Positions 13,241 to 49,700 are shown, counted from the stretch's first letter. The stretch: 64,000 nucleotides of DNA from an uncultured Opitutia bacterium (GCA_945957395.1 CAMFKE010000006.1:62001-126000); one strand, 5' to 3'. Numbers and translations are program-made. Notes: generated by a model not told the origin, from the sequence alone.

Positions 13241-13275
13241 GGAAACGCGGAACGCGGATCTCGGAATGCGGAACC
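13241..13275. repeat. Heptamer-period degenerate repeat
   Basis: Short units of seven bases built on GGAACGC/GGATCTC/GGAATGC follow one another between the serS start and the next gene. On the minus strand they read TTCCGCA TTCCGAG ATCCGCG TTCCGCG, the same family as 15262-15292 and 46700-46720. Confidence 0.7.
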
Positions 13276-13390
13276 GGTGGCGACCGCCCCGATACGCGCC
13301 GCGCAACCCGCAACGGAACGGCCGCAAGGAGACGCAAAACGCGCAAAGGCTCCGGCGACAGACGGGGTGGGATCGGCACATCGCCGGGTG

Positions 13391-15061
13391 ATGCGAGCAG
13401 CCCTTGCGGCTCCCGGAGGCCAATCGGCCAAAGGCTTGCGAACGCTGCACGGAGCGCCATTCCGCTCAATCGCCTCTGCCGCTCATGATGTCCCCCAAAT
13501 TCCTTCTCCCCCCCTGATTCTCACCACCGCCGCAGCCGGCGCCGCCGATAGCGATGCGCCGAATCCGGGCGAGACGACCGCCGCCAAGCCCGCTCGCGCG
13601 AGCGACAACTTCATGAAGGGCGTATCGCTGCGCACACTCAAGCCGCGAACCCAATTCTACGACGAATTCGTCGCCGGGCCCGAGTTCACCGCGCCGCTGC
13701 CATTCAACGGCAAGCCAAGGTTCGCCTTCACCGAATACAAAGACGATCAGGGCACATCGCGATTCCAATACCTCGCCGCCGGCCTGCCCGCGAACAACCC
13801 GCGCCAAGGCGACGCGCCTAAGAACCCCGGCACCGACCGCGGCCCGCTCCTGCGCGTCAACTACGGCGAGCCCATCGTCTTCGGCAAACGCTCCGACGCC
13901 CCGCCGATTCGCATCACCCCCGTCGCCCTCCTCGGGTTTGGCCCGGATCCTTATTCTTACGGCAAGCCTCTCTGGGCAATCGATGCGTCAGGAAATCCGA
14001 TTCCGCAAGACGCCGCCGAAAAGCTCGTACGAGGACTGCCGAACGGCCTCTCCGGATGCTCATTCAGCAAGTTGAACGCTGCAAAACTCGTGATTGTCCT
14101 CGATAGCGACGGAGCGCCGCTGAGCTCAGGAGTCTGCGCCATCCGGCGGGATGACACTGGGGACACGTCGCAACAAGGCATCGAAATCAAAACCCCGGGC
14201 CCTCATAGCGCGCCGCACCGGCGCCTGGCGATTGTCATTCAGCACCCCTTCCACGACGCGCCGCCGGTTTCCGTCGCACTCCAACTTTTCGCCGGCACGC
14301 CCGAATCACTGAAGACACCCGCATACAAAACCGTCGGGGGCGGCAGGTTCACCGTCATGCGCGTGGGCGAAATAGCCCGCAGCACCTGGGCCTGCGGCGG
14401 CATGGGAGCGTACCACTTAGGCGAAAATTCCGACTGGTTGGAAAACTTGAAATCCCAAGCGAAACCGGCGATCCAGCCCCTTCTAAAAACCCCTCCCGAA
14501 GGCCTCCTCGTCTTGGGCGCAACCTGCGATTCAAAGCCTGGGAAAACGGTCTTCTACGCCATCAACGAGGACGCCCCTTCCACGCGATTCGTTCACGACT
14601 CAGACAACCCGGGCAACGACGACAGTCTGGGTGATTTCGGCTCCGGCGCCTCGCATATCCTCGCGTGCGCTGCGGGCGATGCGACCAAGGATCCCGCACC
14701 GCGCCGGCTCCCATACGCCGCGCGAGTGCTTATGAAGTTGCCCGAACTGCCCGGCGAGTGGCCCAATCGCGGCGTCGCCGAACCGCTCGATTGGAAGCTG
14801 AAGATCCCCAAGGGTTATGACGGCAAGCCCTTCGAGCTGCGTAGTTTCGACCTGCGCATTGTATCCGCATTCGCTCCCTACCAATCCGGCACCTCGGTGC
14901 TTATGAACCGCCCGATCACGCCCGGCCCCGACGGCACGCTCACCCTGCGCGAACTGCTCCTCCAGGCGTACGCCCCGGAGATTCGCGAAGGCCACGAGTT
15001 CGAATTCGACCCCGCCGCGCGCCGCATCTCGGCATGCAAGCCGCCCCGCCCCGCCAAGTAA
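13391..15061 (+). CDS. Secreted protein of unknown function, probable frameshift at a C7 tract
   Basis: The uninterrupted frame used here begins at ATG 13391 (556 aa), but its first 41 residues are poor in protein-like features. A better start is ATG 13485 in another frame: [10 protein letters not shown], then a stop after a run of seven C at 13508-13514. One extra C would join it to [13 protein letters not shown] in the main frame, giving a normal signal peptide and a protein of about 525 residues. So either there is a homopolymer error, the gene is phase-variable, or it is decaying. The body ([72 protein letters not shown]) was not recognised. A terminator follows at 15083. Confidence 0.65.
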
Positions 15062-15082
15062 GTCGCGAGACTCGCTCAGACC

Positions 15083-15118
15083 AAGGTCGCCCCTCACCCG
15101 GGCGGCCTTTTGTTTTTT
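15083..15118 (+). terminator. Terminator after the unknown secreted protein gene
   Basis: Stem AAGGTCGCCC (15083-15092) with GGGCGGCCTT (15100-15109), one G-T pair, is followed by TTGTTTTTT. Confidence 0.8.
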
Positions 15119-15381
15119 GGCGGAACGAACCGTCGAGGGGGGGGGCACGGCGGCGCGGCGCCGGCGCCCCCCGGCAGGAAAACCCACTGCCGTCCATCCC
15201 CGGCGCCGGCCTGCGCGCGGCGAGGGCGCCGCGCCCACGACTTGAATCTCCGCCACCGCCTGTTCCGCATTCCGCGTTCCGAGTTCCTCATTTGGCCCGG
15301 CCCGCCTGTCGCCTTTTTGCACTTCCCCGCCCCGGCGAAAAATGCAGGGTCGCGCGCTTTAAACCGAATCTCCGAACGACC
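15119..15381. other. Intergenic leader of pgi with G9 tract and heptamer repeat
   Basis: No gene is seen. The stretch holds a run of nine G at 15137-15145, a GC-rich segment, and a heptamer-period repeat at 15262-15292 (TTCCGCA TTCCGCG TTCCGAG TTCCTCA). The pgi start follows an AC-rich leader without a Shine-Dalgarno motif. Confidence 0.6.
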
Positions 15382-16977
15382 ATGGCCACCACCACCTCCT
15401 CCTGGGACCGCTTCTGCCGATACAACATCGGATTCCCCGAAGTCGGCTTCGCCATCGACATCAGCCGCGTGCCCTTCGGCGACGACTTCCTGGGCCGCAT
15501 GGAGCCTGAGATGAAAAAGGCCTACGCCGCCATGGCCGAGCTGGAGAAGGGCGCCATCGCCAACCCGGACGAGAAGCGCATGGTCGGCCACTACTGGCTG
15601 CGCTCCCCCGAGCTCGCCCCCACGCCCGCCCTGCGCGCGGCCATCGAGGGCGCCGTCTCCGCCATCGAGTCCTTCACCGCCAAGGTGCACGCCGGCGAGG
15701 TCAAGGGCGCCGCGGGCAAGTTCGAATACCTCCTGTGCATCGGCATCGGCGGCTCCGCCCTCGGCCCCCAGTTCGTCGCCGACGCCCTCGGCCAACCGGG
15801 CAAGGACAAGCTGAAGGTCCTCTTCATCGACAACACCGACCCGGACGGCTTCGACCGCGCCTTCGCCGAGCTCGAAGGCAAGCTGGGCAAGACCCTCGCG
15901 GTCGTGACCTCCAAGTCCGGCAGCACGCCCGAGCCGCGCAACGGCATGATCGAAGCGCAGGCGCGCTACGCCAAGGCCGGGCTGGACTTCGCCAAGCACG
16001 CCGTGGCCGTGACCGGCGAAGGCAGCGACCTGGACAAGGCCGCGGTGAAGGCCGGCTTCCTCGCCCGTTTCCCCATGTGGGACTGGGTCGGCGGCCGCAC
16101 CTCCGAACTGTGCGCCGTGGGCCTGCTGCCCGCCGCCCTCCAGGGCCTCGACATCCGCGGCATGCTCGCCGGCGCGCGCAAGATGGACGCGCTCACCCGC
16201 TCCACCGACACCCTGCGCAACCCCGCCGCGCTGCTCGCGCTGATGTGGTGGTTCGAGACCGGGGGCAAGGGCGCCAAGGACATGGTGATCCTCCCCTACA
16301 AGGACCGCCTCCTGCTCCTCTCCCGCTACCTGCAGCAGCTCATCATGGAATCCCTCGGCAAGGAGAAGGACCTCGCCGGCAAGACCGTCAACCAAGGCAT
16401 CTCCGTCTACGGCAACAAGGGTTCCACCGACCAGCACGCCTATGTGCAGCAGCTGCGCGAGGGCGTGAACAACTTCTTCGCCACCTTCATCGAGGTGCTG
16501 CGCGACCGCGACGGCGCCGGCCTGGAAGTCGAGCCCGGCGTGACCTCCGGCGACTACCTGGAAGGCTTCCTGCTGGGCACCCGCGAGGCGCTCACCGAGA
16601 ACGGACGCGCCAGCATCACGCTCACCATCGAATCCGTGTCCGCGCAGTCCGTGGGCGTGCTCATCGCCCTCTTCGAGCGCGCCGTGGGCCTGTACGCCAC
16701 GCTCGCCGGCATCAACGCCTACCACCAGCCCGGCGTCGAGGCGGGCAAGAAGGCCGCCGCCTCGGCGCTCAAGCTGCAGGGCGCCGCCCTGGGAGTGCTG
16801 AGCGCCGCCCCCGGCAAACCCTTCACCGCTTGTGAAATCGCCGCCAAATTGGAACTTGAAGGCCAAGCGGAGCTTATCTTTAAGCTGCTCTCGCATCTGG
16901 CGGCCAACCCGGGCCGCCGCGTGGTCGCCAACCCCGCCGCCGGCATCGCCGGCACGACCTTTACCGTTACCCCCTAA
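15382..16977 (+). CDS. pgi: Glucose-6-phosphate isomerase
   Basis: A 531-residue cytoplasmic enzyme that interconverts glucose 6-phosphate and fructose 6-phosphate in glycolysis and gluconeogenesis. The phosphate-binding [17 protein letters not shown] motif, [19 protein letters not shown], and the late active-site segment [23 protein letters not shown] are all present. The ATG at 15382 gives [15 protein letters not shown]; the open frame extends upstream but that part is repeat and terminator sequence. The C-terminal 60 residues ([34 protein letters not shown]) form an extra small helical domain, as in the longer Pgi forms. The next gene starts 17 bases after the stop, so the two may be cotranscribed. 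Confidence 0.96.
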
Positions 16978-16994
16978 GCGCCCCCCATCCCCGC

Positions 16995-18005: not shown

Positions 18006-18038
18006 GCCTGTCGATTCACGCTCCGAACGCCCGACGCC

Positions 18039-18197
18039 ATGAAGCCCCTCGCCCTGCTCGCCGCCGCCGCCCTGGCCCTCGCCTGCTCCGGCTGCGAATC
18101 CGAAAAGCCGCACGACTCGCGCCTCCCCGGCGCGCAGCCCGCGGCTTGGGAGCAGACGCTCCCCGGCATGGGTGGCATGGGTACCGGCGTGCGCTAA
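18039..18197 (+). CDS. Small lipoprotein, 52 aa
   Basis: A short open frame begins MKPLALLAAAALALACSGCES. That is a complete lipoprotein signal peptide with Cys at the cleavage site (CSGC; the modified Cys is probably Cys19). The remaining 33 residues are Pro/Gly/Ala-rich and end LPGMGGMGTGVR. It starts 33 bases after the coiled-coil protein gene and is followed 20 bases after its stop by a strong terminator, which makes it the last gene of that transcription unit. Its function is unknown. Short frames like this are easily missed by automatic calling. Confidence 0.65.
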   Translation: MKPLALLAAAALALACSGCESEKPHDSRLPGAQPAAWEQTLPGMGGMGTGVR

Positions 18198-18217
18198 GCG
18201 ACGAACGACTCGCCCTG

Positions 18218-18254
18218 AAAACGGGAGGACGCCCAACGGCGCCTCCCGTTTTTC
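18218..18254 (+). terminator. Terminator after the small lipoprotein gene
   Basis: AAAACGGGAGG (18218-18228) pairs with CCTCCCGTTTT (18242-18252); the loop can add a CGCC/GGCG pairing. A T run follows. Confidence 0.85.
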
Positions 18255-18290
18255 GCGCCCGCCTCCCGGGCCGTCCGCGCCCGTTTCTCA

Positions 18291-18330
18291 TTTTGCCTTT
18301 TGCCTTTTGCCTTCGCGGGCCTAGGCCCGC
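18291..18330. repeat. Heptamer repeat (TTTTGCC)3 and palindrome before rsmI
   Basis: Three exact tandem copies of TTTTGCC plus a partial fourth are followed by the 16-bp perfect palindrome GCGGGCCTAGGCCCGC (18315-18330). The palindrome ends three bases before the rsmI start codon, so it would form part of the leader or could hide the start in a hairpin. Confidence 0.7.
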
Positions 18331-18333
18331 CGC

Positions 18334-19023
18334 ATGTCCGGCTCCCTCCTCGTCGTCGCCACGCCCATCGGCAACCTCGCCGACATCTCCGACCGCGCGC
18401 GCGAGGCGCTCAAATCCGCCTCGGTCATCGCGTGCGAGGACACGCGCAACACTGGCAACCTGCTCAAGCTGCTGGGCATCCACCGCCCGCTCGTGTCCAA
18501 CCACGGCAACAACGAGAAGGAGGTCGCCGCGGCGCTCGCCGACCGCGTGGCCGCGGGCGAGACGGTGGCCGTGGTGTCGGACGCCGGCACGCCCGCCATC
18601 AGCGATCCCGGATTCCGCGTGGTGCGCGAGTGCCGCCGGCGCGGGCTGCCCGTGTCGCCCATCCCCGGGGCGTGCGCCTTCGTCGCCGCGCTGAGCGCGT
18701 CGGGGCTGCCCACGAACGCCTTCGCCTACCACGGGTTCCTCCAGCCCAAGTCGGCCGCGCGTATCCGGTTTTTGGAAACCGTGGCGGCGCAATCCGAGAT
18801 CACGCTCGTGCTCTACGAATCCTGCCACCGCATCGGCTCCTTCGTGGCCGAGATGGCGGAGAAGCTCGGGCCGGACCGCGTGATCTGCGTGGCGCGCGAG
18901 GTGACCAAGCTGCACGAGACCATCCTCGTGGGCCGCGTCGCCGACCTGCTGCCGAAGATGACCGGCAACAACCTGCGCGGCGAGTTCGTCGTCATCATCG
19001 CGCCCAAGGACTTCGCGCTCTGA
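18334..19023 (+). CDS. rsmI: 16S rRNA 2'-O-ribose C1402 methyltransferase
   Basis: A 229-residue tetrapyrrole-methylase-fold enzyme that adds a 2'-O-methyl group to C1402 in the decoding centre of 16S rRNA using S-adenosylmethionine. The N-terminus LLVVATPIGNLADISDRA, the ACEDTRNTGNLL motif, the SDAGTPAISDPG loop and the later ESCHRI and VAREVTKLHET motifs are all RsmI signatures. It is shorter than the E. coli protein because it lacks the C-terminal extension. It ends 19 bases before the stop of the convergent TonB-like gene. The start codon is immediately preceded by a perfect palindrome. Confidence 0.95.
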   Translation: MSGSLLVVATPIGNLADISDRAREALKSASVIACEDTRNTGNLLKLLGIHRPLVSNHGNNEKEVAAALADRVAAGETVAVVSDAGTPAISDPGFRVVRECRRRGLPVSPIPGACAFVAALSASGLPTNAFAYHGFLQPKSAARIRFLETVAAQSEITLVLYESCHRIGSFVAEMAEKLGPDRVICVAREVTKLHETILVGRVADLLPKMTGNNLRGEFVVIIAPKDFAL

Positions 19024-21046: not shown

Positions 21047-21055
21047 ATCACGATA

Positions 21056-21072
21056 CTCGAATCTCGTATCTC
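21056..21072. repeat. Inverted heptamer-type repeat at the nuoF stop codon
   Basis: CTCGAATCTCGTATCTC is the exact reverse complement of 22431-22447. It overlaps the nuoF stop codon (21071-21073). Confidence 0.75.
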
Positions 21073-22423: not shown

Positions 22424-22430
22424 GAGATTC

Positions 22431-22447
22431 GAGATACGAGATTCGAG
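22431..22447. repeat. Inverted heptamer-type repeat at the nuoF start codon
   Basis: GAGATACGAGATTCGAG lies in a run of GAGATTC/GAGATAC/GAGATTC units that begins beside the nuoF ATG (22423). It matches the copy at 21056-21072 in inverted orientation and forms most of the nuoE-nuoF spacer. Confidence 0.75.
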
Positions 22448-22457
22448 AGGTGCCGGT

Positions 22458-23077: not shown

Positions 23078-23203
23078 AACAAGGGATTGCGGATTGCGGA
23101 ACGCGGATTGTGGAAGGAACTGCCGATGCGTAACGCGGAACAGGGCGTGCGCGGCCGTTTACAAAAAGGCTCCGGTGCGCCGTCCCGAGTTCCGCGTTCC
23201 CTT
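23078..23203. repeat. Heptamer-repeat spacer between nuoE and the UMF1 transporter gene
   Basis: Two runs of 7-base units face each other. GATTGCG-type units occupy 23084-23120 and TTCCGCG-type units occupy 23186-23203. GGAACGCGGA (23098-23107) and TCCGCGTTCC (23191-23200) are exact inverted copies, so the spacer could fold into a long hairpin. Confidence 0.7.
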
Positions 23204-23204
23204 C

Positions 23205-24500
23205 CTAGGCCGCGCTGCGCTCGGCGCGGCGGGCGAGCGCCAGGAACACGAGGCCGGCGAGGAAGAGCAGGGCGAGCGAGGCGAACCCGGCGCGGGCCAG
23301 CGAGGCGGCGGATTTCTCGACCACGAACAATCCGGCGGCCCAGGCGAGCAACGGGCCCAGCACGGTGGAGCACTTGCCGATCATCGAGTAGAACCCGAAG
23401 AAGGCGGTCTCGCGACCGGCCGGGATGAGGCTCGCGTAGTAGCTGCGCGAGAGAGCCTGCACGCCGCCCTGCACCATGCCCACCATGGCCGCGAGCACCA
23501 TCAGCGGCGTCACGGTCAGCCCAACCAGGTGCAAATCGCCCGGGGTGAGACGCGAGCCGTAGGTGGTGACCACCAGGTAGAATCCGAGCGCCAGGGCGAT
23601 CATGGGGCGCGCCCCCACCCGCCCGGCGAGCCAGCCGAAGCCCAGCGCGCACGGCACGCCGAAGATCTGCACGACAAAGAACGCCTTGAGCACCTCGCCG
23701 GGCGTGAAGCCGACGGATTCGCCCAGGTAGGCGGCGGTGGCGACCACCGTGCTCACGCCGTCGATGTAGAAGATGTACGCGAGCAGGAAGCGCCGCAGCG
23801 GCTTGATCGCCCAGATTTCCTTGAGCGTGCGCCAGGCTTCGGCCACGCCGGCCTTGGCCAGCGCGAGCGGCGGCATGGGCGCGTGCAGCGTGGCCTTGTC
23901 GGCGTGGCGCGTGAGCAGCGGCAGCGCGAAAAGCAGCCACCACAACCCGGCGAACCCGAATATCCACGGGGCGCTCTGCGCGGCGCTCGAGAACAGGTCC
24001 TGCGTGGCGGCCAGGGCGACGAGCATGAGCACGCCCGCCACATAGCCGAAGGAGAACGCCAGCCCGCTGACCGTGTGCCGCTCCGCCGGCTCGGCGACCT
24101 CGGTGAGCATGGCGTCGTAGAAGATGTTGCCGCAGAAGAAACAGGCCGCCCCGGCGATATACACGAGCGAGGCGCCCCACCAGCAACCGGCGGGCACGAA
24201 ACCCAGCGCCACGGTGAGCAGCGCCCCGGCCACGGCGATGCGCCGCAGCAAACGCAGCCTCAGGCCGCCCGCCTCGGCGGCGCCGGCGAGCACCGGCGCG
24301 ACGAACGCGACGAGCAGGCTGGCCAACGAAAGCGTGAGGCAGAAGGCGGTGTGCGCGCCGTCGGCCGGCAAACCGGAGGCCCACAGGCTCTTGTAAAGGC
24401 GGGGGAAGACCAGCGCGAGCACCGCCATGGCGAACGCCGTGTTGGCGAAATCGTACAGCGCCCAGCGCAGGGCGGGCGGCGTGAGGGCGCGTTTCAACAT
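23205..24500 (-). CDS. MFS transporter, UMF1 / Atg22-like family
   Basis: A 431-residue inner-membrane protein with about 12 hydrophobic segments. The N-terminus MLKRALTPPALRWALYDFANTAFAMAV carries the RWALYDFANTAF signature of the UMF1 (Atg22-like) branch of the major facilitator superfamily. The GNIFYDAMLTEVA and QALSRSYYASLIPAGRETAFFGFYSMIGK segments of that branch are also present. The start at 24500 is chosen because the 22 upstream in-frame residues are Arg-rich and non-conserved in character. Members of this branch are mostly of unknown substrate, though the yeast relative exports amino acids. It is divergent from the thioesterase gene. Confidence 0.9.
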   Translation of the reverse strand: MLKRALTPPALRWALYDFANTAFAMAVLALVFPRLYKSLWASGLPADGAHTAFCLTLSLASLLVAFVAPVLAGAAEAGGLRLRLLRRIAVAGALLTVALGFVPAGCWWGASLVYIAGAACFFCGNIFYDAMLTEVAEPAERHTVSGLAFSFGYVAGVLMLVALAATQDLFSSAAQSAPWIFGFAGLWWLLFALPLLTRHADKATLHAPMPPLALAKAGVAEAWRTLKEIWAIKPLRRFLLAYIFYIDGVSTVVATAAYLGESVGFTPGEVLKAFFVVQIFGVPCALGFGWLAGRVGARPMIALALGFYLVVTTYGSRLTPGDLHLVGLTVTPLMVLAAMVGMVQGGVQALSRSYYASLIPAGRETAFFGFYSMIGKCSTVLGPLLAWAAGLFVVEKSAASLARAGFASLALLFLAGLVFLALARRAERSAA

Positions 24501-26933: not shown

Positions 26934-26958
26934 GGACTTTCGCGATACGCGAAACAAA

Positions 26959-26992
26959 GAAGGCCGCCTCGGGAAACCGGGCGGCCTTTTTA
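26959..26992 (+). terminator. pyk terminator
   Basis: GAAGGCCGCC pairs with GGCGGCCTTT, with a loop of TCGGGAAACC-type sequence, followed by a T run. It uses the same stem sequence as the terminators at 15083, 35892 and 38613. Confidence 0.85.
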
Positions 26993-26993
26993 T

Positions 26994-27075
26994 TGCGGAT
27001 CGAGGATTGCGGATTGGGTGACGTGGCTTTGGGGAACGGGGTGTCGGGTGCCCGTTTCGCAATCCGCAATCGAGG
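26994..27075. repeat. Heptamer-repeat spacer between pyk and rsmG
   Basis: GATTGCGGATTG at 27005-27016 and its exact inverted copy CAATCCGCAATC at 27060-27071 flank a GC-rich centre. The units have a 7-base period of the ATTGCGG type, also found at 23084 and inside mfd. Confidence 0.75.
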
Positions 27076-27076
27076 G

Positions 27077-27820
27077 TCAGGCGGCGGGCGTTTCGGGGGC
27101 TTCCGGTTCCGTCTTCGCAGGTTCTGCGGTCGTCGTTCCGGGTTCCGAGTTCGATTCCGCCTCGGGCTTCTTCGCGCGGTTCAGGGAATTCGTGCGGTAG
27201 TGCAGGATGTACTTTTCGAAGAAGTACTCGTCGTTCTCGAGGGTCGGCTGGATCTCGAAGGTGAAGTCGGGGCGCACGCCCATCGCCTCGCGCTCCGGCT
27301 CCAGCGGGCCGCCCTTCCAGTAGAGCAGGCCGTTGTCGTGCGAGTGCTTGGCGCCCTTGCGGATGAGCCCCTTGGTGAGCTGCACGAACGCCGGCAGCGC
27401 GGTGACCGCGCGTCCGGTGACGAAGTCGTACTCCTTCTTGATTGTCTCCACACGCGCGTTGATCACCTCGACATTGCGCAGCTTCAGACGCTCCACGATG
27501 TCCTTCACCACGAGGATCTTCTTGCCCACCGAGTCCACGAGCGTGAACCGGCACTCCGGGTAGAGCACGGACAGGATGAGGCCGGGGAAACCGCCGCCGG
27601 TGCCCACATCGATCACGCGAGCGCCGTCCATGAGCTTGAGGAATTTCACGGCGCAAAGGCAGGGCGCGTAGTGGTGCCACTCCAGGTTGTCGATGTCCTT
27701 GCGGGAAACCAGGTTGATCTTGGCGTTCCACTCGCGGTGCAACGCCGCCATGCGGGTGAGCAGCTCCCACTGCTGCGCGGTGATTTCGGGAAAGTGCGGT
27801 TTGACGCGGTCGAAGGACAT
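27077..27820 (-). CDS. rsmG: 16S rRNA (guanine527-N7)-methyltransferase, with C-terminal extension
   Basis: A 247-residue AdoMet-dependent methyltransferase acting on G527 of 16S rRNA. The chosen ATG gives MSFDRVKPHFPEITAQQWELLTRM. The AdoMet site VIDVGTGGGFPGLILSVLYPECRFTLVDSVGKKILVVKDI and the NARVE/VTGRAVTALP region are canonical. The enzyme normally ends at about 210 residues. Here an acidic, Pro/Thr/Glu-rich tail of about 30 residues follows RTNSLNRAKKPE. The DNA of that tail (GTTCCGGGTTCCGAGTTCG on the plus strand) resembles the neighbouring heptamer-repeat sequence, so the extension may have come from repeat DNA. Confidence 0.92.
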   Translation of the reverse strand: MSFDRVKPHFPEITAQQWELLTRMAALHREWNAKINLVSRKDIDNLEWHHYAPCLCAVKFLKLMDGARVIDVGTGGGFPGLILSVLYPECRFTLVDSVGKKILVVKDIVERLKLRNVEVINARVETIKKEYDFVTGRAVTALPAFVQLTKGLIRKGAKHSHDNGLLYWKGGPLEPEREAMGVRPDFTFEIQPTLENDEYFFEKYILHYRTNSLNRAKKPEAESNSEPGTTTAEPAKTEPEAPETPAA

Positions 27821-29401: not shown

Positions 29402-31114
29402 ATGCTGAACCGCCACCTCCTCCCCGCTTCCGCCCTGGTCGCCGCCGCCTTCATCGCCGGCTGCGCTTCCTACGACAAGACCGTCGCCCAGGAAGTGTCC
29501 GTCAAGTCCACCCCCGACGAAGCCACCGTGAGCATCAACGGGCAGGCCATGGACAAAACGACCGACACCTCGTTCGTGCTCAACCGCGACCAGGACTATG
29601 TCATCGAGATTTCCAAGAGCGGCTACAAGACCGCGTCCGTTCGCGTGAACCACCGCGCCCTCAGCGAGCCCGCCGAAGGCGCCCCCAAGTTTGAACTCGA
29701 GACCACCGACATCGCCGTGACCCTCGAGGAGGAGCCCGCCGCCGTCGCCGCCCGCGAGGCCGCCGCCAAGGCCGAAGCCGACGCCAAGGCCGCCGCCGTT
29801 CAGGCCGAGGCCGACGCCAAGGCCCTCGAAGCCAAGGTCGAGGCCGACAAGGTCGCCGCCGAGCAGGCCAAGGCCGCCGAAGCCGCCAAGGCCGAAGCCG
29901 ACGCCAAGGCCGCCGCCGAGAAGGCCGAGGCCGAAAAGGCCGCCATGTTCACCGCCGCCGAACAGGCCGCCGCCGAAATCGCCGCCAAGCGCGACGCCGC
30001 CAAGACCGCCGTGGCCGCCGCCGAGGACGCCGCCGAAGCCTCCCGCGACGCCGCCAAGACCTCCTTCTCCAAGGCCGAAAAGGCCGGCGACCTCGCCAAG
30101 GACGCCGAAGACGAACTCGCCGCCGCCACCAAGGCGCTTGAGAAGGCCCGCGAACGCGCCTCCGCCACCGACGAAGGCTTCTTCGCCTCCCTCTTCTCCA
30201 CCTCCCCCGAGTCCGCCCTGGACAGCGCCGACGAAGCCGTGGCCGACACCGAGGCCACCCTCGCCAAGGCCGCCGAGCGCGTCGCCAAGGCCACCGAAGC
30301 CGCCGCCGCCTCCACCGCGGCCTCCGCCGCCGCGGTCACCGCCATCGAGACCGCCTCCTCCGCCGTCGCCAAGGCCGACGCCGCCGACAAGTTCTCCGAC
30401 GACATCGCCGAGGCCAAGCAGGACGCCGAAGCCGCCGACGCCCAGGCCAAGGCCGCCGCCGACGCCCTCGCCGCCGCCAACGCCCGCATCGCCAAGGTCA
30501 CCGCCGACACCGCCGCCGTGAAGGCCGAGGTCGCCGCCCTGCGCGCCAACCTCGACGGCGTGAAGGCCGAAGCCGCCGCCAAGGCCGAGAAGGACAAGGC
30601 TGACGCCGCCGCCGCCGAAAAGGCCGCCGAGGAAGCCAAGCTCAAGGCCGAGGCCGACGCCAAGGCCGCCGCCGAGAAGGCCGAGGCCGACGCCAAGGCC
30701 GCCGCCGAGAAGGCCGAAGCCGAAGCCAAGGCCAAGGCGGAAGCCGAGAAGGCCGCCCCGGCCGAAGCCGAAAAGGCTCCCGCCGCCGTCGCCCCCGTCG
30801 CCCCCGTCGCCCCCGCCGCTCCCGCCGCTCCTGCCGCCGACACCGAACTGAAGAAGGCCAACGAAGAGCTGGCCGCCGCCAAGGAGACCATCGCCAAGAC
30901 CGAAGCCGAGAAGGCCGCGCTGACCGCCAAGGTCGCCGAACTGGAAGCCAAGGTCGCCGAGCTTCAGGCCAAGCCCGCCGCCGTGTCCGCGGACACCAAG
31001 GGCCTGACCGCCACCGATGTGTTCGCCCGCTACAAGGCGCTTCGCAAGAAGTACGCCGCCGGCGAGCTCACCAACGAGGAATACGCCAAGCGCGTGGCGG
31101 AAATCACCCGCTAA
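29402..31114 (+). CDS. PEGA-domain lipoprotein with long Ala/Lys/Glu coiled coil and SHOCT-like end
   Basis: A 570-residue protein. MLNRHLLPASALVAAAFIAGCAS is a lipoprotein signal with lipobox IAGC. Residues about 30-105 look like a PEGA domain (VSVKSTPDEATVSINGQAM...VIEISKSGYKTASVRVNHR). Residues about 115-480 are extremely Ala/Lys/Glu-rich, with repeated AEADAKAAAEKAE blocks, and should form a long helix or coiled coil. A Pro/Ala/Val linker (APVAPVAPAAPAAPAA) separates a second short coiled coil. The final 30 residues (VFARYKALRKKYAAGELTNEEYAKRVAEI) resemble a SHOCT domain. It is probably a periplasmic structural or envelope-spacing protein. A long antisense frame within it is a by-product of the codon bias. 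Confidence 0.8.
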   Translation: MLNRHLLPASALVAAAFIAGCASYDKTVAQEVSVKSTPDEATVSINGQAMDKTTDTSFVLNRDQDYVIEISKSGYKTASVRVNHRALSEPAEGAPKFELETTDIAVTLEEEPAAVAAREAAAKAEADAKAAAVQAEADAKALEAKVEADKVAAEQAKAAEAAKAEADAKAAAEKAEAEKAAMFTAAEQAAAEIAAKRDAAKTAVAAAEDAAEASRDAAKTSFSKAEKAGDLAKDAEDELAAATKALEKARERASATDEGFFASLFSTSPESALDSADEAVADTEATLAKAAERVAKATEAAAASTAASAAAVTAIETASSAVAKADAADKFSDDIAEAKQDAEAADAQAKAAADALAAANARIAKVTADTAAVKAEVAALRANLDGVKAEAAAKAEKDKADAAAAEKAAEEAKLKAEADAKAAAEKAEADAKAAAEKAEAEAKAKAEAEKAAPAEAEKAPAAVAPVAPVAPAAPAAPAADTELKKANEELAAAKETIAKTEAEKAALTAKVAELEAKVAELQAKPAAVSADTKGLTATDVFARYKALRKKYAAGELTNEEYAKRVAEITR

Positions 31115-32399: not shown

Positions 32400-32499
32400 C
32401 AGTGGAGAGGTGAAAGTTGATAGAGGAAGCACCCGCTTCACCGGTCAACAGAACCACTTCGCCCCCTCTCGACTCACAACTCTCAACTCACAACTCATT
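32400..32499. repeat. Heptamer-repeat spacer between gcvT and gcvH
   Basis: Units of about seven bases (GTGACAG TGGAGAG GTGAAAG TTGATAG) start the spacer. A second run, CAACTCT CAACTCA CAACTCA-type units at 32471-32497, ends a few bases before the gcvH ATG. The two halves are partly complementary, so a loose hairpin is possible. Confidence 0.7.
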
Positions 32500-38490: not shown

Positions 38491-38605
38491 CGACTCAGAA
38501 GTGTGAAGTGAGAATGGTGAAGATGAGAGGTGAGACCGTCGCACGCGCCTATCGAAAACGCGTAAGCACGGGATGCATTTCACACTTCGCCATTCTCACT
38601 TCTTA
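38491..38605. repeat. Heptamer-repeat hairpin after fhs
   Basis: A run of units AAGTGTG AAGTGAG AATGGTG AAGATGA GAGGTGA (38499-38535) faces an inverted run ending at 38602. GAAGTGAGAATGGTGAAG (38505-38522) and CTTCGCCATTCTCACTTC (38585-38602) pair over 18 bases with a single G-T-type mismatch. Together they could form a large hairpin around a 60-base centre. Confidence 0.8.
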
Positions 38606-38612
38606 TTTCCGC

Positions 38613-38641
38613 AAGGCCGCCCCACCCGGGCGGCCTTTTTT
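38613..38641 (+). terminator. fhs terminator
   Basis: AAGGCCGCCC (38613-38622) pairs with GGGCGGCCTT (38628-38637), followed by T6. It sits just behind the heptamer hairpin. Confidence 0.85.
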
Positions 38642-38773
38642 GCGGCGGCGTCCGGGCGCGCGCCCGGCCCGGGAATACATGCGCCTCGACAAGTGCGCCG
38701 GCGGTCGCACACCGACCCAACGGTTTCGCGCCCCCGGGGATTCCTCCCGGGCTTCGCGTTGCCGTTTCCGCCC

Positions 38774-41005
38774 ATGCCCGACACCATCCGCCTGCGCGAC
38801 ATTCCGCGCGACCTGCTCTCCGGCCTCGTCGTCTTCCTCGTGGCGCTGCCGCTGTGCCTGGGCATCGCCCTTGCCTCGGGAGCCCCGGTGCTTTCCGGCA
38901 TCATCGCCGGAGCGGTGGGCGGCATCGTGGTGGGCCTGCTGAGCGGCTCGCAGATCAGCGTGAGCGGACCCGCCGCCGGACTTTCCGCCGTGGTGCTCGC
39001 GCAGATCGACCGGCTGGGCGGCCTCAACGGGGGCGGTTTCGAGGCGTTCCTGATGTGCGTGGTGCTCGCCGGCGTGTTCCAGATGGTGTTCGGCGCGCTG
39101 CGCGCCGGTTTCTTCGCCAACTACATCCCGACGAATGTGATCCGCGGCCTGCTCGCCGCCATCGGCATCATCATCATCCTCAAGCAGGCGCCGAACCTCA
39201 TCGGCTACAGCCCGTCGCACGGGGTGACGCTGAGCTTCTTCGACCTGGGCGGGGGCAACACCTTCTCGAACCTGTTCGCCATCAGCGTGTTGCCCGGTGC
39301 CCTGTTCATCGGGGTCGCCTCGGTCGCGCTCATCCTCCTTTGGGAGAACACGCGACTGAAGCGCCTGCCGTTGCCGTCCGCGCTCATCGCGGTCATCGCG
39401 GCGGTGGCGATCAACGAGGCGTTCCTGGCCGCCGGCAGCGCGCTGGCGGTGACGGGAAAAGGGTACCTGATCAACCTGCCCACCGGCATCCTGGAATCGC
39501 CCAAGTCGTTCCTGCGCTTCCCCGATTTCTCCCGCATCGGCGAATCCGCCGTGCTGCTCGGCGCGCTCACGCTCGCGGCGGTGGCGTCGCTGGAGACGCT
39601 CCTGAACCTGGAGGCCGCCGACAAGTTCGACCCGCGCAAGCGCGTCTCGCCGCCCAACCGCGAGCTGTTCGCGCAGGGGGCGGGCAACATCGCGTCGGGC
39701 CTGCTGGGCGGCCTGCCGGTCACCTCGGTGATCATCCGCAGCTCGGTGAACGCCACGGCGGGCGCGCGCACGCGCCTTTCCGCCATCTTCCACGGCGTGC
39801 TGCTGGTGGTGGCCATCCTGCTGCTCACGCCGCTGCTCAACCGCATCCCGCTGGCCGCGCTGGCGGCCATCCTGGTGGTGACCGGCTTCAAACTCGCGAG
39901 CCCGCGCCACTTCGTGAAGCTCTACCGGGAGGGCTGGAACCAGTTCCTGCCGTTCGTCTTCACCATCGTCGCCATCATCTTCACCGACCTGCTGCTGGGC
40001 ATCATGATCGGCCTGGGCGTGAGTATCGCCTTCATCCTGCACAACAACCTGCGACGCGGCATCCATGTGGTGAAGGAGCACCATGCCGTCGGCGATGTCA
40101 CCCGCCTCGAGCTTCCCGAGCAGGTCACCTTCCTCAACCGCGCCGTGCTCGCCACCGCCTTTGAGAAACTCCCTTCGGGCACGAATGTCGCCATCGACGC
40201 GCGCACGACCGCCTACATCGACCCGGACATCCACGCCCTCATCCTGAAGTTCCGCGACGAGGACGCTCCGGCGCGCGGGCTGACCGTGAGCCTGCTGGGC
40301 TTCAAGAACCGCTACGACATCGAGGACACCGTGCAGTTCGTGGACGAGAGCTCGCGCGAGATGCAGTCGCAGCTCACGCCGCAGCGCGTGCTGGAGATCC
40401 TGCGCGAGGGCAACGCGCGCTTCGTGAAGGGCGAGCGCCTCTACCGCGACCTGGCCCGCCAGATGAACGCGCTGGGCGAAGGGCGCCCGCCGCTGGCCGC
40501 CATCCTGGCGTGCAGCGACGCGCGCGCCTCCACCGAGCTCATCTTCGACCTCGGCCTGGGCGACATCTTCAGCATCCGCCTCGCCGGCAACATCCCCGGG
40601 CAGAAGGCGCTCGGCAGCATGGAGTTCGCCTGCCTGCGCAAGGGCGCCAAGGTCGTGCTCGTGCTCGGCCACACCGACTGCGACGCCGTCGCCTCGGCCT
40701 GCGAACGCCTCGCGCCGCCGGCCACCGTGCCCACGGGCGCCTTCGACCACTTCGACTGCATCACCGGCCCCATCGGCGGCGCCGCGCACGAGGAGTGCGA
40801 GGCCTCCGGCGTGACGCTCTCTCCGGCCGTGGCGCCGGCGGCGGATTTCGTGGACCGGGTGAGCGCGCGCAATGTGCGGCGCACGCTCGACTACATCCGG
40901 GCGAACAGCCCGTCGCTGCGCGAGATGGCCGAATGCGGCGAGATCGCGCTGGTGGGCGGCATGTACGATGTGAAGTCAGGACGGGTCGAGTTCTTCACGG
41001 CCTGA
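38774..41005 (+). CDS. SulP-family anion transporter fused to a beta carbonic anhydrase
   Basis: A 743-residue three-part protein. Residues 1 to about 425 form a SulP permease with about 10-12 membrane segments (SGLVVFLVALPLCLGIALASGAP, SGPAAGLSAVV, LLGGLPVTSVIIRSSVNATAGARTRLSAIFHG). Residues about 440-530 look like a STAS-type domain. Residues about 540-743 are a beta carbonic anhydrase with all zinc and catalytic residues visible: Cys580 and Asp582 in ACSDAR, His633 and Cys636 in GHTDC. SulP-carbonic anhydrase fusions are known and are thought to move bicarbonate while hydrating CO2 at the membrane. Another carbonic anhydrase gene follows 59 bases downstream. The start at 38774 avoids repeat and terminator DNA upstream. 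Confidence 0.93.
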   Translation: MPDTIRLRDIPRDLLSGLVVFLVALPLCLGIALASGAPVLSGIIAGAVGGIVVGLLSGSQISVSGPAAGLSAVVLAQIDRLGGLNGGGFEAFLMCVVLAGVFQMVFGALRAGFFANYIPTNVIRGLLAAIGIIIILKQAPNLIGYSPSHGVTLSFFDLGGGNTFSNLFAISVLPGALFIGVASVALILLWENTRLKRLPLPSALIAVIAAVAINEAFLAAGSALAVTGKGYLINLPTGILESPKSFLRFPDFSRIGESAVLLGALTLAAVASLETLLNLEAADKFDPRKRVSPPNRELFAQGAGNIASGLLGGLPVTSVIIRSSVNATAGARTRLSAIFHGVLLVVAILLLTPLLNRIPLAALAAILVVTGFKLASPRHFVKLYREGWNQFLPFVFTIVAIIFTDLLLGIMIGLGVSIAFILHNNLRRGIHVVKEHHAVGDVTRLELPEQVTFLNRAVLATAFEKLPSGTNVAIDARTTAYIDPDIHALILKFRDEDAPARGLTVSLLGFKNRYDIEDTVQFVDESSREMQSQLTPQRVLEILREGNARFVKGERLYRDLARQMNALGEGRPPLAAILACSDARASTELIFDLGLGDIFSIRLAGNIPGQKALGSMEFACLRKGAKVVLVLGHTDCDAVASACERLAPPATVPTGAFDHFDCITGPIGGAAHEECEASGVTLSPAVAPAADFVDRVSARNVRRTLDYIRANSPSLREMAECGEIALVGGMYDVKSGRVEFFTA

Positions 41006-44757: not shown

Positions 44758-44789
44758 GACCGGCGCCGCGCGCCCCGTCAAAACACGCC

Positions 44790-44822
44790 ACCCGCATCCG
44801 GCTTCCGGATGCGGGTGTTTTG
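44790..44822 (+). terminator. Terminator after the DUF4914 gene
   Basis: ACCCGCATCCGG (44790-44801) pairs with CCGGATGCGGGT (44805-44816) around a CTT loop, followed by GTTTT. Confidence 0.88.
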
Positions 44823-44865
44823 TCGCCGGACCTCGGCGCCGCGCCTCGTGGTCGGCGGGCGCGAA

Positions 44866-44899
44866 AAGGCCCGCCGGATTCCTCCGGCGGGCCTTCTTT
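44866..44899 (-). terminator. carA terminator
   Basis: A 13-bp stem AAGGCCCGCCGGA / TCCGGCGGGCCTT (44866-44878 with 44883-44895) just downstream of the carA stop; the A run supplies the U run on the minus strand. Confidence 0.85.
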
Positions 44900-44919
44900 C
44901 GCAATTCGGCGGGGCCGGA

Positions 44920-46074
44920 TTACTTCACGACCTTGGCGACGAGCTGGTAGAAGTCCTCGAAGAGCGCGTCGGCCTCGGAGGGGCCGGGGCCGGCTTCGGG
45001 GTGGTACTGCACGGAGAACACCGGCTTGTCCTTCAGGCGCAGGCCCGCGACGGTGCCGTCGTTGAGGTTGCGCTCGGTGATCACGGCGCCGGCGGCCTCG
45101 AGGGTCTCGGGGATGGCGGCGTAGCCGTGGTTCTGGGCGGTGATGGACACCACGCCGGTCTCGCTGTTCTTGACCGGCTGGTTGCCGCCGCGGTGGCCGA
45201 ACTTGAGCTTGTAGGTCTTCGCGCCGATGGCGTGCGTGATGAGCTGGTGGCCCAGGCAGATGCCGAAGATGGGCTTACCGGTGGCGATCAGCGCGTTCAC
45301 ATTCTTGTGCGCGTAGTCGAGGGCGGCGGGGTCGCCGGGGCCGTTCGAGAGGAACACCGCGTCGGGCTTGATGGCGAGCAGGTCGGCGGCCGGGGCGGTG
45401 GCGGGGAACACGTGCACTTCGAAGCCGGTGTGCTGCAGCTTCTTGAAAATGGAGGTCTTCGCGCCGAAGTCGTACGCGGCCAGCTTGTACACCTTGCGGT
45501 CCTGCTTCACGCGGTTGAGGTGCGTGCCGGGCACCGAGAACGGCGCGCACTCGGCGTCGCCGGCCTTGAAGGCATGGGCCTTCGCGCAGGTCACTTCCTT
45601 CACGAAGTCGACGCCCTCGAAGCCCTTCCACTCGCGGGCGCGCTTCACGGCCTCCTCGTCGGAAATGTTTTCGGTGGAGATGCACGCCTTCATCACGCCG
45701 GCCGAGCGCAGCTTCTTGGTGATGGCGCGGGTGTCCACGCCCTCGATGCCGGGGATGCCGTGCTTTTCCAGGTAGGTGGACAGGTCGGTCGTCGCGCGCC
45801 AGTTCGACACGATGGGCGAGAGCTCGCGCACCACGAAGCCGTAGGCCTTGGGGCCGGCGGACTCGATGTCCTCCTCGTTCACGCCGTAGTTGCCGATCTG
45901 CGTGGCCGTCATGGTCACGATCTGGCCCGAGTACGACGGGTCGGTCAGGATTTCCTGGTAGCCGGTCATGCTGGTGTTGAACACCGCTTCACCGACGACC
46001 GTCTTAACGGCGCCAAAGGCGCGTCCACGAAAGACGCTACCATCTTCAAGAGCGAGAACTGCATGACGGGTCAT
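44920..46074 (-). CDS. carA: Carbamoyl-phosphate synthase small subunit
   Basis: A 384-residue glutaminase subunit that supplies ammonia to CarB for carbamoyl phosphate, used in arginine and pyrimidine synthesis. The N-terminus AVLALEDGSVFRGRAFGA, NTSMTGYQEILTDPSYSGQIVTMT, the class I glutamine amidotransferase nucleophile GICLGHQ (Cys273) and the VSITAQNHGYAA and QYHPEAGPGPSEA motifs with catalytic His and Glu are all present. The start at 46074 is the first one consistent with the family; longer frames upstream are unlike CarA. carB is not in the window. It is transcribed alone and is divergent from a small coiled-coil gene. Confidence 0.96.
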   Translation of the reverse strand: MTRHAVLALEDGSVFRGRAFGAVKTVVGEAVFNTSMTGYQEILTDPSYSGQIVTMTATQIGNYGVNEEDIESAGPKAYGFVVRELSPIVSNWRATTDLSTYLEKHGIPGIEGVDTRAITKKLRSAGVMKACISTENISDEEAVKRAREWKGFEGVDFVKEVTCAKAHAFKAGDAECAPFSVPGTHLNRVKQDRKVYKLAAYDFGAKTSIFKKLQHTGFEVHVFPATAPAADLLAIKPDAVFLSNGPGDPAALDYAHKNVNALIATGKPIFGICLGHQLITHAIGAKTYKLKFGHRGGNQPVKNSETGVVSITAQNHGYAAIPETLEAAGAVITERNLNDGTVAGLRLKDKPVFSVQYHPEAGPGPSEADALFEDFYQLVAKVVK

Positions 46075-46233
46075 GGTGCCGGAGAAAACCGCATCGCACC
46101 CGGCAGTGAAGGCTTTTTTGGAAAAACTTTGAAAAAGCCTCGCAAGGCCGCTTCGCCACTGGGCCGGCCCTTGGCGCAAGTCGCGCTCGCCACCCGCGCC
46201 CAACCCTGAAATCTGCCGCCTGAAACCTCCCTT

Positions 46234-46515
46234 ATGAAATCCGCCTACGAACTCGCCATGGAACGCCTCGCCGCCAAGGACGGCGCGCTCAAGCCGCTCA
46301 CCGACGAGCAGAAGCGCCGCATGGCCGACCTCGACACGCGACTGAAGGCCAAGATCGCCGAGCGCGAAATCGCCGTGGCCAAGGCCGAAGCCGACGCTCG
46401 CGCGCGCGGCGAATACGAATCCGCCCTCGCCCACCGCGAACTCTTCCGCCGCGAACGCGCCGGACTCGAGGCCGACTGCGAATCCGCCAAAGAGCGCATC
46501 CGCAACGAGGCATAG
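46234..46515 (+). CDS. Small charged coiled-coil protein, 93 aa
   Basis: A highly charged helical protein (KSAYELAMERLAAKDGALKPLTDEQKRRMADLDTRLKAKIAEREIAVAKAEADARARGE...) with no signal peptide and no membrane segment. Such a sequence should form a single long helix or coiled-coil dimer. It is not assignable to a known family from sequence alone. It lies divergently from carA and ends in a spacer of heptamer repeats before mfd. Confidence 0.7.
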   Translation: MKSAYELAMERLAAKDGALKPLTDEQKRRMADLDTRLKAKIAEREIAVAKAEADARARGEYESALAHRELFRRERAGLEADCESAKERIRNEA

Positions 46516-46557
46516 CCGCCCGCCGTGGCATGCGCGTCCCGCGCATGTCGGCGGACG

Positions 46558-46720
46558 AGATTTCAGGTTTCAGGATTCAGGAAGCCACCGTCCGAGTTGT
46601 CTTCAGGTTTTACGCCCCATCCGCCCCATTCATCCTCCACGGCTTTCCCTCTTTCCTGAAATCTGAACTCTGAACCCTGAAACCTCGGCGGATTCATTCC
46701 GCGTTCCGAGTTCCGAATTC
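46558..46720. repeat. Heptamer-repeat spacer before mfd
   Basis: TTTCAGG-type units at 46561-46583 face CTGAAAT CTGAACT CTGAACC CTGAAAC units at 46656-46684, which is the inverted orientation. A second run of TTCCGCG TTCCGAG TTCCGAA type (46700-46720) ends four bases before the mfd ATG and so forms its ribosome-binding region. Confidence 0.8.
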
Positions 46721-46723
46721 CCC

Positions 46724-49700
46724 ATGTCCACCGTCAACCGCCCCCGCTTCCTTGCCGGCATGCCCGAGGCCGCCGCCGGGGCGGCCGTGGCGTCGTTGCT
46801 GACGGATGCCGGCGCGCGCGTGCTGGTGCTGCTTTCCCATAATCTCGGCCGGGCCGAGGCCGTGGCCGAGGACACGGGCTTCTACGCCGCCCTGCGCGGA
46901 TTGACCGCGCCGGACATGACCGCCCTGCCGCCCGCCGGCGAAGAGGGGGCCGGCGCCTTCGAATCCGAGTGCGACATGCTGGCCGCGCTCGCGGCGCTGC
47001 GAGCCGCGAGGCCAAGGCAAAGTGCAGAGTGCAAAACGCAGAAGGGCGAGCGGGAGGCCGTTTCGAAGGAGGTCGCGGAATCCAATCCGCAATCTGCAAT
47101 CCGCAATCCGCAATCGTCCGCCTCGTGTCTCCTCCTAGCCACCTCCCCCGAGGCGCTGCTGCGCCCCTGCCCCGGCCGCGAATCCGCCGAGCGCGCGGAG
47201 GTCGTGTTGCGGCCCGGGATGCGCACGCCGTTGCGCGGGCTGGTCGAGACGCTCGCCAAGGACTTCGACTACGACCACGAGGCGCTGTGCGAGTCGCCCG
47301 GCCAGTTCGCCGTGCGCGGCGGCATCGTGGACGTGTACCCGTTGAACGCGCATGCGCCGGTGCGCATCGACTTCTTCGGCGACGAGATCGAAAGTCTGCG
47401 CGTGTTCGACCCCGTCTCGCAGCGCAGCGAGGGCGAACCGCTCCGCGAACTCCTCATCGCCGCGCCCGTGGCGGAATCCGGCGAGGCGCGCCCCGGAGCC
47501 TTTTTCGAGCACCTGCCGCCTGATACGCTCTTCGTGTGGCTGGAACCGGCCGATGCGCCGTCCGGCTGGCCCGTCGAGCCCGCGTCGTTGCCGCGCGCCA
47601 TGCTCTCGCAGCTGGAGGAGCCCCCGGCGTGGTTTGTCGGGACGAAGGACGCGGGACGAAAGACGAAGGCGGGCGAGGACGCCCGCGCTCCGGCAGAACA
47701 TGAGGGCGAAATCGGATGTGCTCCGGCCGAACCGGCACGCGCAAGCGCGCGCCCTACGGAGAAGGAGACATCCTCTCGAATCTCGCCTCTCGAATCTCGC
47801 GTCTCCCTCGCCGACTGGTCGGGCGAATCGCTGGAATTCTACGCCGCCGAACCGGACGCCGCAGTGTTCGGATTGGAGCGACTGGAGGAGGCCGGGCGAC
47901 TGCGCGCCGGACTGCTGCGCCGCCTCGCCGTCTGGCGCGCCGAAGGCCGTCGCGTGCTGCTGGTGTGCGAAACGGCCGGCGGCGTCGAGCGCCTGCGCGA
48001 AATCGTCGCCGAGCAGAAGGAGGACTGGCTCACCGCTCCCGAACCCGCTGCGCCGGAGGTGAAATCTAAAGGCCGTGGTCGCGCAAAGAAATCAGCCTCG
48101 AAATCGGGCTCGGACGCCAATCCGCAATCCGCGATCCGCAATCCGCAATCCCTGTCCGCCTCGAACCGGGCCCTCGCCGAGTTCTCCCCCGAATACTTCA
48201 CCGGCCGCATTTCCGAAGGCTTCGCGCTGCCCGCCGGGCGGCCCGCCGCCGAGTTGGGCGCACCACAGGGGTTCGTCGTGTGCACCGAGCGCGAGCTGTT
48301 CGGGCGCGGTCGGCGCCGGCCGCCCGCGCTGCGCACGCGCCGACTGCCGAACAAGTCGCGCCTCGACCAGATTCTGGATTTTCACGAGCTGGCGGACGGC
48401 GACCTGCTCGTGCACCTCAAGCACGGCGTGTGCCGCTACCGGGGCATCACGAAGCTCGAACTGCGCGGGCAGGGCGAGGAGGTGGTGTCGTTGGAGTTCG
48501 CCGACAATGTCACGATGCACACGCCGCTGCGCGAGGCGCACCTGCTCTCGCGCTATGTCGGCCTGACGAAAGTTTCCCCGCGCCTGGGCAAGATCGGTTC
48601 GGACGGCTGGCAGAAGACCCGCAAGGCCGCCGAGGCCGCGACCGTCGACATCGCCGCGGACCTGCTTCGGCTGCAGGCGCGCCGACAGGCCGTGCCCGGT
48701 CACGCCTTCCCGCTCGACGCCGACACGCCCTGGCTGGGCGAGTTCGAGCGCGCCTTCCCGTACCGCGAGACGCCCGACCAGTCCAAGGCCATCGTGGACA
48801 CGAAGGCCGACATGGAGCGCCCGTTCCCCATGGACCGGCTCGTGTGCGGCGATGTCGGATACGGCAAGACCGAGGTCGCCATCCGCGCGGCGTTCAAGGC
48901 GGTGCTCGGCGGCCGCCAGGTGGCGCTGCTGTGCCCGACCACCGTGCTCGCCCAGCAGCACTACAACACCTTCCGCGAGCGCTTCGCGAACTTCCCCGTG
49001 TCGGTGGAGCTGCTCAGCCGTTTCCGCAAGCCCGCGCAGCGCGCGAAGGTGGCCGCGGCGTTCAACGCCGGCAGCGTGGACATCGTGGTGGGCACGCACG
49101 CGCTGCTCGCGCACTCCATTCACCCGCCCAAGCTCGGGCTGGCCATCATCGACGAGGAGCACCGGTTCGGCGTGCGCCACAAGGAGGCGTTCAAGCGCCT
49201 GCGCGAGAATGTCGATGTGCTCGCCATGTCGGCCACGCCGATCCCGCGCACCCTGTACATGGCGCTCATGGGCGCGCGCGACCTGTCCGTCATCGAGACG
49301 CCGCCCAAGGAGCGACTGCCCATCCGCACGGTCGTGAAAGCCTACGACCCGAAGCTCGTGGAACAGGCCATCCGCTACGAGGTCGGTCGCGGTGGCCAGG
49401 TGTTTTACCTGCACAACCGGGTGGAGACCATCGAGTCGGTCGCATCTCGACTGCGCGACATGCTGCCGGGCATGCGCATCGGCGTCGGCCACGGCCAGAT
49501 GGACGAGGAGGACCTGGAGGACATGATGACGCGGTTCGTGGCGGGCGATTTCGATGTGCTCGTGTGCACGACCATCATCGAGACCGGCCTGGACATCCCG
49601 AACTGCAACACGCTCATCATCGAGGGCGCCGACCGCTTCGGGCTTTCCCAACTCTATCAGCTGCGCGGGCGCGTGGGGCGGTTCAACCGCCAGGCGTACG

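Follow-up and report, generated by a model that had tools for sequence, protein, structure and literature searches.

Paired seven-nucleotide repeat arrays of one polarity as possible arms of small insertion units in an Opitutia genome and other bacteria

Degenerate tandem repeats with a period of seven nucleotides recur between the genes of an uncultured Opitutia bacterium, and most of these runs are the arms of a pair, in which a 20–180-nt core has a G-rich unit 5′ of it and the complement of that unit 3′ of it. We believe, with a probability of roughly 0.55, that these runs form the ends, or arms, of small non-coding insertion units of ~80–250 bp, the arms being maintained by 7-nt slippage or re-copying. 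The fixed direction of the arrays, together with the arm-core-arm insertions, points to a common way of making them.

Results

Period-7 arrays in the window and in the genome

The survey covered a 64,000-nt window (contig C6, 62001–126000, the whole stretch of DNA that was analysed) plus 1.99 Mb of the 2.79 Mb assembly of the same genome. Runs built from 7-nt units had been noted at a dozen or more places in the window by a first-pass annotation, and they are present there, most being detected by Tandem Repeats Finder as period-7 arrays (at 13244, 15263, 18291, 22424, 23084, 26992, 32472, 46562, 46656, 46697, 47017, 47083, 47772 and 48118). The period-7 runs at 21056, 32400 and 38499 are irregular and were seen by eye. 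When an array was required to have at least 16 of 18 matches at a given lag, the window contained nine clusters at lag 7, one at lag 6 and none at lag 8. The 1.99 Mb yielded a strong excess of lag 7 (52 sites) over lags 6 and 8 (13 and 1), with three each at lags 5 and 10, and an order-5 Markov control sequence yielded no lag-7 site. With a score threshold of 14 as a second criterion, the counts were 53, 15, 1, 15 and 38 at lags 7, 6, 8, 9 and 14, respectively. The tandem period-7 arrays occur beyond chance, as does the class of heptanucleotide long simple-sequence repeats described by Mrazek.

After arrays were divided into genic and intergenic with a simple gene caller, those at lag 7 were 13-fold denser between genes (301/Mb) than within them (23/Mb). 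Intergenic densities at lags 6, 8 and 9 were 4, 31 and 48/Mb, and the arrays at lags 6, 9 and 12 were almost all or mainly genic. Perfect heptamer arrays of 53–55 nt open three contigs, so the assembly probably breaks at long arrays and their count is too low. The period had initially been described as always seven; period 7 is indeed kept, but a 14-nt alternation is frequent as well, and long arrays of this genome are more similar to themselves at lag 14 (0.84) than at lag 7 (0.77). In other bacteria, similarity along the arrays declines slowly with distance (0.86, 0.85, 0.80 and 0.78 at lags 7–28).

Position of arrays relative to genes

Arms lie mostly 0–40 nt from the flanking genes. On the plus strand of the window, a G-type heptad array (AACGCGG/GGAATGC, 13241–13274) lies just 3′ of a plus-strand gene, its partner being degenerate or missing; a C-type array (TTCCGCA/TTCCGCG, 15262–15292) lies upstream of the plus-strand gene at 15382; and a further C-type array, (TTTTGCC)3.3 at 18284–18316, is followed 20 nt downstream by the plus-strand gene at 18334. 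The minus-strand gene nuoF has a C-type array (GAATCTC/GTATCTC, 21052–21072, +) filling the gap at its stop codon and a G-type array (GAGATTC/GAGATAC, 22424–22449, +) directly at its start codon. An irregular G-type array (GAAGTGT/GAAGTGA, 38496–38536, +), recognised by eye only, falls under the detection threshold.

Complete arm-core-arm units, which are assigned to no strand, are found at four intergenic sites of the window. Between convergent genes at 23084–23205, a G-type arm (GGATTGC/GGAACGC, 23084–23115) is separated by the core from a C-type arm at ~23184–23205 (GAGTTCCGCGTTCC). The unit at 26992–27077, which matches the exact convergent pattern, consists of an ATTGCGG arm (26992–27017), a core of ~40 nt and a CGCAATC arm (27058–27077), and adjoins an ordinary, complete intrinsic terminator at ~26955–26992. 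The gap between gcvT and the next gene is filled by a unit at 32400–32498 with a weak G-type arm (32400–32432) and a strong C-type arm (CAACTCA/CAACTCT, 32466–32498), an ATG following 3 nt on. The unit at 46558–46685 has a TTTCAGG arm (46558–46584), a ~70-nt core and a CCTGAAA arm (46655–46685); a second C-type array (TTCCGCG/TTCCGAG, 46695–46722, +) then abuts the mfd ATG at 46724.

Arrays were found in 15 tandem, 5 divergent and 5 convergent gaps, compared to 464, 185 and 135 gaps of these classes, roughly as expected from the frequency of each class. With no preference for a gap class and an ordinary terminator adjoining one unit, we rejected a terminator role as a general explanation; an intrinsic terminator has a GC stem with a T run and avoids divergent gaps, and the arms here lack a T run. 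In divergent gaps, both genes lie no more than ~20 nt from the arms, which would place the promoters in the core, and such cores might be native.

The paired arms have one polarity

That some runs form inverted pairs had been noticed at the outset and was confirmed. The G-rich units of left arms include GGATTGC, GGAATGC, AAGGCAA, GAAGGGT, GTTTTCA, AGGTTTC, GAGATGC and others; as the first-pass annotation had it, units vary in sequence between loci, but they are not unrelated sequences, each being of fixed orientation. Counting arrays with an inverted partner within 300 nt, we obtained a polarity of 44:1 in this genome (21 + 23 arms vs 1) and 120:9 at 125 loci of other bacteria from about ten phyla (62 + 58 arms vs 9), counts that are not independent observations since each pair can count once per arm. 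In a test free of unit classification, ATTGCGGATT-N(30-60)-AATCCGCAAT occurred in 6 of 289 genomes of the phylum and its mirror (reversed) order in none of the 289. Arrays that lack a recognisable partner lay with C-type at the right gap edge and G-type at the left in a ratio of 27:6, and typed intergenic arrays in two closed genomes of a related genus kept the rule 9:0. Where gaps lack arrays, the sequence ahead of start codons is generally skewed towards C, with little skew in convergent gaps, so the skew explains only part of the upstream polarity.

Both arms of a pair draw on one unit family. A permutation test on 58 pairs detected no match in unit order between the arms (mean rank fraction 0.49, p = 0.30), and in-register hairpin copying was rejected on this result.

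An exact (CAATCCG)3 scan of bacterial genome contigs matched more than 119 stretches, from Acidobacteria, Verrucomicrobia, Planctomycetota, Chloroflexi, Gemmatimonadetes, Bacteroidetes, Nitrospirae, Nitrospinota, Latescibacteria, Hydrogenedentota, Sumerlaeota, Deltaproteobacteria and others. The loci bearing these units, from which the 120:9 polarity count was taken, span at least a dozen phyla. The runs had been proposed to represent a class analogous to the cyanobacterial STRR in another phylum; such a class does exist outside cyanobacteria, but it is spread over at least a dozen phyla and is not specific to one more.

Occupied and empty sites in a related genus

Three distinct orthologous junctions were aligned in g23, a genus of the same order with 21 species. 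Locus 1 is empty in G156, G188, G324, G335 and G337, with 16–20 nt between the anchors, and carries a heptamer pair in G307, with 153 nt between them. In G307 a 145-nt arm-core-arm unit separates two genes that in G156 share an ATGA overlap. G331 has a single arm at this place, and G321, G334, G336 and G329 have other repeats, either an arm pair with a 9–10-nt period (ACCACGGAATACACGG...TTCGTGTCCATTCGTGGT) or a TGTAG-type palindrome. Locus 1 speaks against native intergenic cores, the congeners there having next to no gap.

At locus 2, G332 and G326 are empty, two species have palindromes and nine have heptamer pairs, with a CAAGNNN unit in five of these and CCAAANN units in four. The flank of G328, in the CCAAANN group, is 91% identical to that of G156, yet the content of the locus differs. 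Within g23, most differences between orthologous arms are point substitutions at the variable letters, and the arms keep a near-constant unit number; one 7-nt loss was seen in the species-level comparison of G156 with G334. Neither of the outcomes named in the first-pass annotation as refuting its reading was obtained: period 7 clearly exceeds periods 6 and 8, and the runs do not stay at conserved positions. Whole arm-core-arm units are gained and lost at the orthologous junctions. Sites both occupied and empty, as in MITEs, are found in this related genus.

Cores are shared by a minority of units, and arms are rewritten around them

An iterative profile seeded by C6:166061–166200 retrieved more than 20 related units. 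A profile of the core only retrieved eight dispersed copies with heptad arms, one of which has one arm and one decayed. Compared with these cores, sister genera match in the arms only, the cores being absent. The copies at C10:11550 and C10:13070 have cores that are 94% identical over 66 nt and left arms of different type (GAAGGCA vs GAGGTGG), the rewritten arm keeping its length and polarity; similarly, C1:259856 and C6:234779 have a common core with AAGGCAT and AAGTGAG arms, respectively. In these copies the arms have turned over more rapidly than the core, with period, polarity and length kept. A dispersed homologue (E<1e-5) exists for only about 20 of the 115 inner stretches, leaving ~95 with none, so most units are not demonstrably copies and may form locally. 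Dispersed copies with common internal sequence, another property of MITEs, were found for this minority of units.

Three units appear to lie inside mfd

Judging from gene and protein comparison, three arm-core-arm units appear to lie within mfd. The candidate insertion at 47014–47117 (~aa 98–131) comprises a GCAAAGT/GCAGAGT arm, a short core and a CAATCCG arm. The one at 47636–47806 (~aa 305–362) comprises a GACGAAG arm, a ~100-nt core and a GAATCTC arm, and its core holds two small GC-rich palindromes that are found again elsewhere in the genome. At 48115–48153 (+; ~aa 465–476) there is a C-type CAATCCG array whose left arm is not recognisable. The first two are, like the intergenic units, of no assigned strand. 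All three segments (aa 98–131, 305–362 and ~465–476) are in-frame here and missing from the Mfd of relatives, which are ~67% identical and in which the linkers concerned vary in length anyway. Such insertions may account for part of the linker variation in proteins like Mfd.

A separate observation concerns the insertion at 47014–47117, whose relation to the dispersed family is weak and mostly arm-based.

Structure and mobiliser searches

Taken singly, copies fold into long stems that contain inner hairpins. Nine close copies gave a consensus stem with nine pairs showing double changes, at an unfavourable covariation term (+1.3), and a 16-copy alignment gave no consensus structure; on these grounds an RNA structure conserved over all copies was rejected. 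Only tRNAs scored above the Rfam gathering score in the window, L094, L032 and L038. The Y1 transposase of REP elements (PF01797) gave no hit in this genome while control searches were positive, and RAYT/REP mobilisation was rejected on its absence. This search for a transposase (PF01797) revealed no transposase or carrier for the units. The terminal repeats of the units are degenerate arms only, and no target-site duplication was evident at the one junction inspected.

Discussion

In the layout that we favour for the insertion units, a core lies between a G-rich heptad arm and a heptad arm of complementary vocabulary. Such units would originate at gene junctions or be inserted there, and at times within genes, and their movement would use trans-acting or host replication and repair functions. 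Once a unit is inserted, 7-nt slippage might both maintain and rewrite its arms, or the nascent 3′ end might be re-primed to the same effect while DNA is synthesised. Pairing of one arm with the other in any 7-nt register would help this process, and would thereby leave the arms with a common vocabulary and not a common unit order. DNA synthesis probably sets the period, in line with Mrazek's proposal for heptamers. A mechanism that enforces the period, for example slippage or templated copying, had been suggested from the start. Something does keep the period, but slippage alone gives no polarity, pairing or unit-wise gain and loss, and fails on the shared cores; templated copying is a possible source of the arrays.

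Ordinary replication slippage as the entire explanation would generate heptanucleotide microsatellites wherever coding constraint is absent, the 7 nt being the DNA segment held by DNA polymerase and pairing and polarity being by-products. The standing of heptamers as the commonest 5–11-nt repeat class in most genomes, as cited from Mrazek, is in keeping with this, as are the slow drop in similarity along arrays of other bacteria, the 7-nt loss between G156 and G334 and the perfect ~50-nt arrays at three contig ends. We consider it unlikely, as it predicts neither inverted pairing of one polarity nor the near-constant unit number of orthologous arms, and accounts neither for whole units being gained or lost, arms and core together, nor for dispersed copies whose core is shared. 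Distinctly improbable, in our judgement, are selected DNA or RNA hairpins, in which the arms would be the stem of a terminator, mRNA stabiliser or coupling regulator, free in sequence as long as pairing is kept. The arms are unmatched in unit order, the covariation term is unfavourable and the larger alignment lacks a consensus, convergent gaps are not enriched over divergent ones, and units also lie within genes and, in one case, beside the complete terminator at 26955–26992; these weigh against the long stems of single copies, the double changes in the nine-copy consensus and the hairpin made by heptads in P6b of the Nostoc tRNA-Leu intron (PMC3488679).

Dedicated end synthesis would have an enzyme extend both 3′ ends of a fragment, or of break flanks, by error-prone repeated copying of a short template (telomerase-like or by re-priming), the product being inserted. 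The strict polarity outward from the core would follow, and so would a vocabulary that is the same at both ends in differing order, variable letters at fixed unit positions (CAAGNNN) and the recurrence of units across phyla. Even so, we regard it as highly unlikely: our searches found no enzyme or template, orthologous arms change mainly by point substitution, and the many unit families speak against one template. A broader conjecture, which we hold to be quite unlikely, is that one widespread bacterial process makes small insertions whose ends grow outward on both 3′ ends in degenerate 7-nt steps of one polarity, by a machine re-priming every seven nucleotides, and that the heptamers of cyanobacteria, Xanthomonas and Beggiatoaceae are all its products.

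Heptamers are cited as the most abundant 5–11-nt repeat class in most prokaryotes (Mrazek 2007, cited in PMC4679880), with the proposal that 7 nt fits the segment held by DNA polymerase (cited in PMC4679880 and PMC4692102). The GGGAATC arrays of Xanthomonas are described as including 70–75 close pairs oriented convergently (Rehm et al. 2015, PMC4692102), the same polarity as that found here. Those arrays resemble ours in being degenerate heptads (GGGANTN, usually ~four units), mostly intergenic, that turn over in length and sequence between species; the study treats one unit family, studied as G-quadruplex, and is not known to report common cores, empty sites or other phyla. The units of this genome (GGATTGC, GGAATGC, AGGCAAA, GTTTTCA and others in our census) do not follow (GGGANTN)n. 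TAACTGA heptamers occur in marine Beggiatoaceae, cyanobacteria and Bacteroidetes (MacGregor 2015, PMC4679880) as forward direct repeats before start codons, which fits the C-type rule here. Theirs is one fixed unit with related heptamers rare and inverted arrangements nearly absent, whereas the arrays here are degenerate and mostly paired. P6b of the Nostoc tRNA-Leu intron has degenerate heptanucleotide repeats on both sides of its stem (PMC3488679). The period of 7 and the degenerate units of the cyanobacterial STRR and Nostoc P6b repeats are shared by the arrays here. A class consensus of such repeats, GATTTDN, resembles GATTTCG of this genome. Unlike the inserted arm-core-arm units, these repeats have been described as intron structure or as fingerprinting markers. 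REP, BIME and REPIN elements are, like the units here, short, non-autonomous and palindromic, dispersed at gene ends and rapid in turnover; the units differ from them in the absence of PF01797 and in their make-up, with heptad arms around unrelated cores in place of a conserved REP and its tetranucleotide.

The heptamer excess, the Xanthomonas convergent pairs, the Beggiatoaceae TAACTGA repeats and the Nostoc P6b hairpins are already known. In the open-licence literature we found nothing on such repeats in Verrucomicrobia and no prior report of the cross-phylum polarity rule, occupied and empty sites, common cores or arm rewriting. Over decades, scattered reports of heptamer repeats have offered slippage as the only cause; the polarity rule across about ten phyla and the occupied and empty sites tie them to an insertion process, against slippage alone, and the question of why seven becomes testable in closed genomes of one genus.

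Repeats accompanying the heptamer arrays

Three contigs of the genome containing the window (G000) start within perfect (CCTTCCA)n/(GTGGAAG)n arrays, which occupy C2:1-55, C8:1-53 and C11:1-53. Longer heptamer arrays therefore appear to have been break points of the G000 assembly. Intergenic gaps of this genome without arrays showed a general C-rich skew immediately 5' of start codons, on both strands.

Within the window, two palindromes, GGGCGAGGACGCCCGCGCTCCGG and GGCACGCGCAAGCGCGCGCCCTACGG (47670-47770), both small and GC-rich, lie in the core of mfd insertion 2, an in-frame segment with a heptamer arm on either side of its core; each palindrome has further copies in G000 at 90-100% identity. 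Elsewhere, a heptamer arm immediately follows a canonical intrinsic terminator, GGCCGCCTCGGGAAACCGGGCGGCCTTTTT (26955-26992). Long coding repeats of low complexity (Ala/Glu/Lys; 3, 9, 15, 18 and 33 nt) occur in the gene at 29402-31114 and bear no relation to the heptamers. In the product of the gene at 38573-41005, a carbonic anhydrase domain is fused to a SulP-type (bicarbonate/sulfate) transporter.

Two other kinds of repeat were observed at gene junctions of the related genus g23. At junctions L301, L304, L310 and L344 there was a second class of arm pair, with a period of 9-10 nt and the pattern ACCACGGATNNACACGGAT...ATCCGTG...GTGGT, whose gene junctions and polarity were identical to those of the heptamer pairs. 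In regions L298, L288 and L319, a dispersed palindromic repeat of ~80 nt, present in dozens of copies in each g23 genome, took the place of heptamer units at the same junctions; its types were GTAGGAGCCTGC..., TGTAGGGCGGGATC... and GGTGGAGCG...CGCTCCACC.
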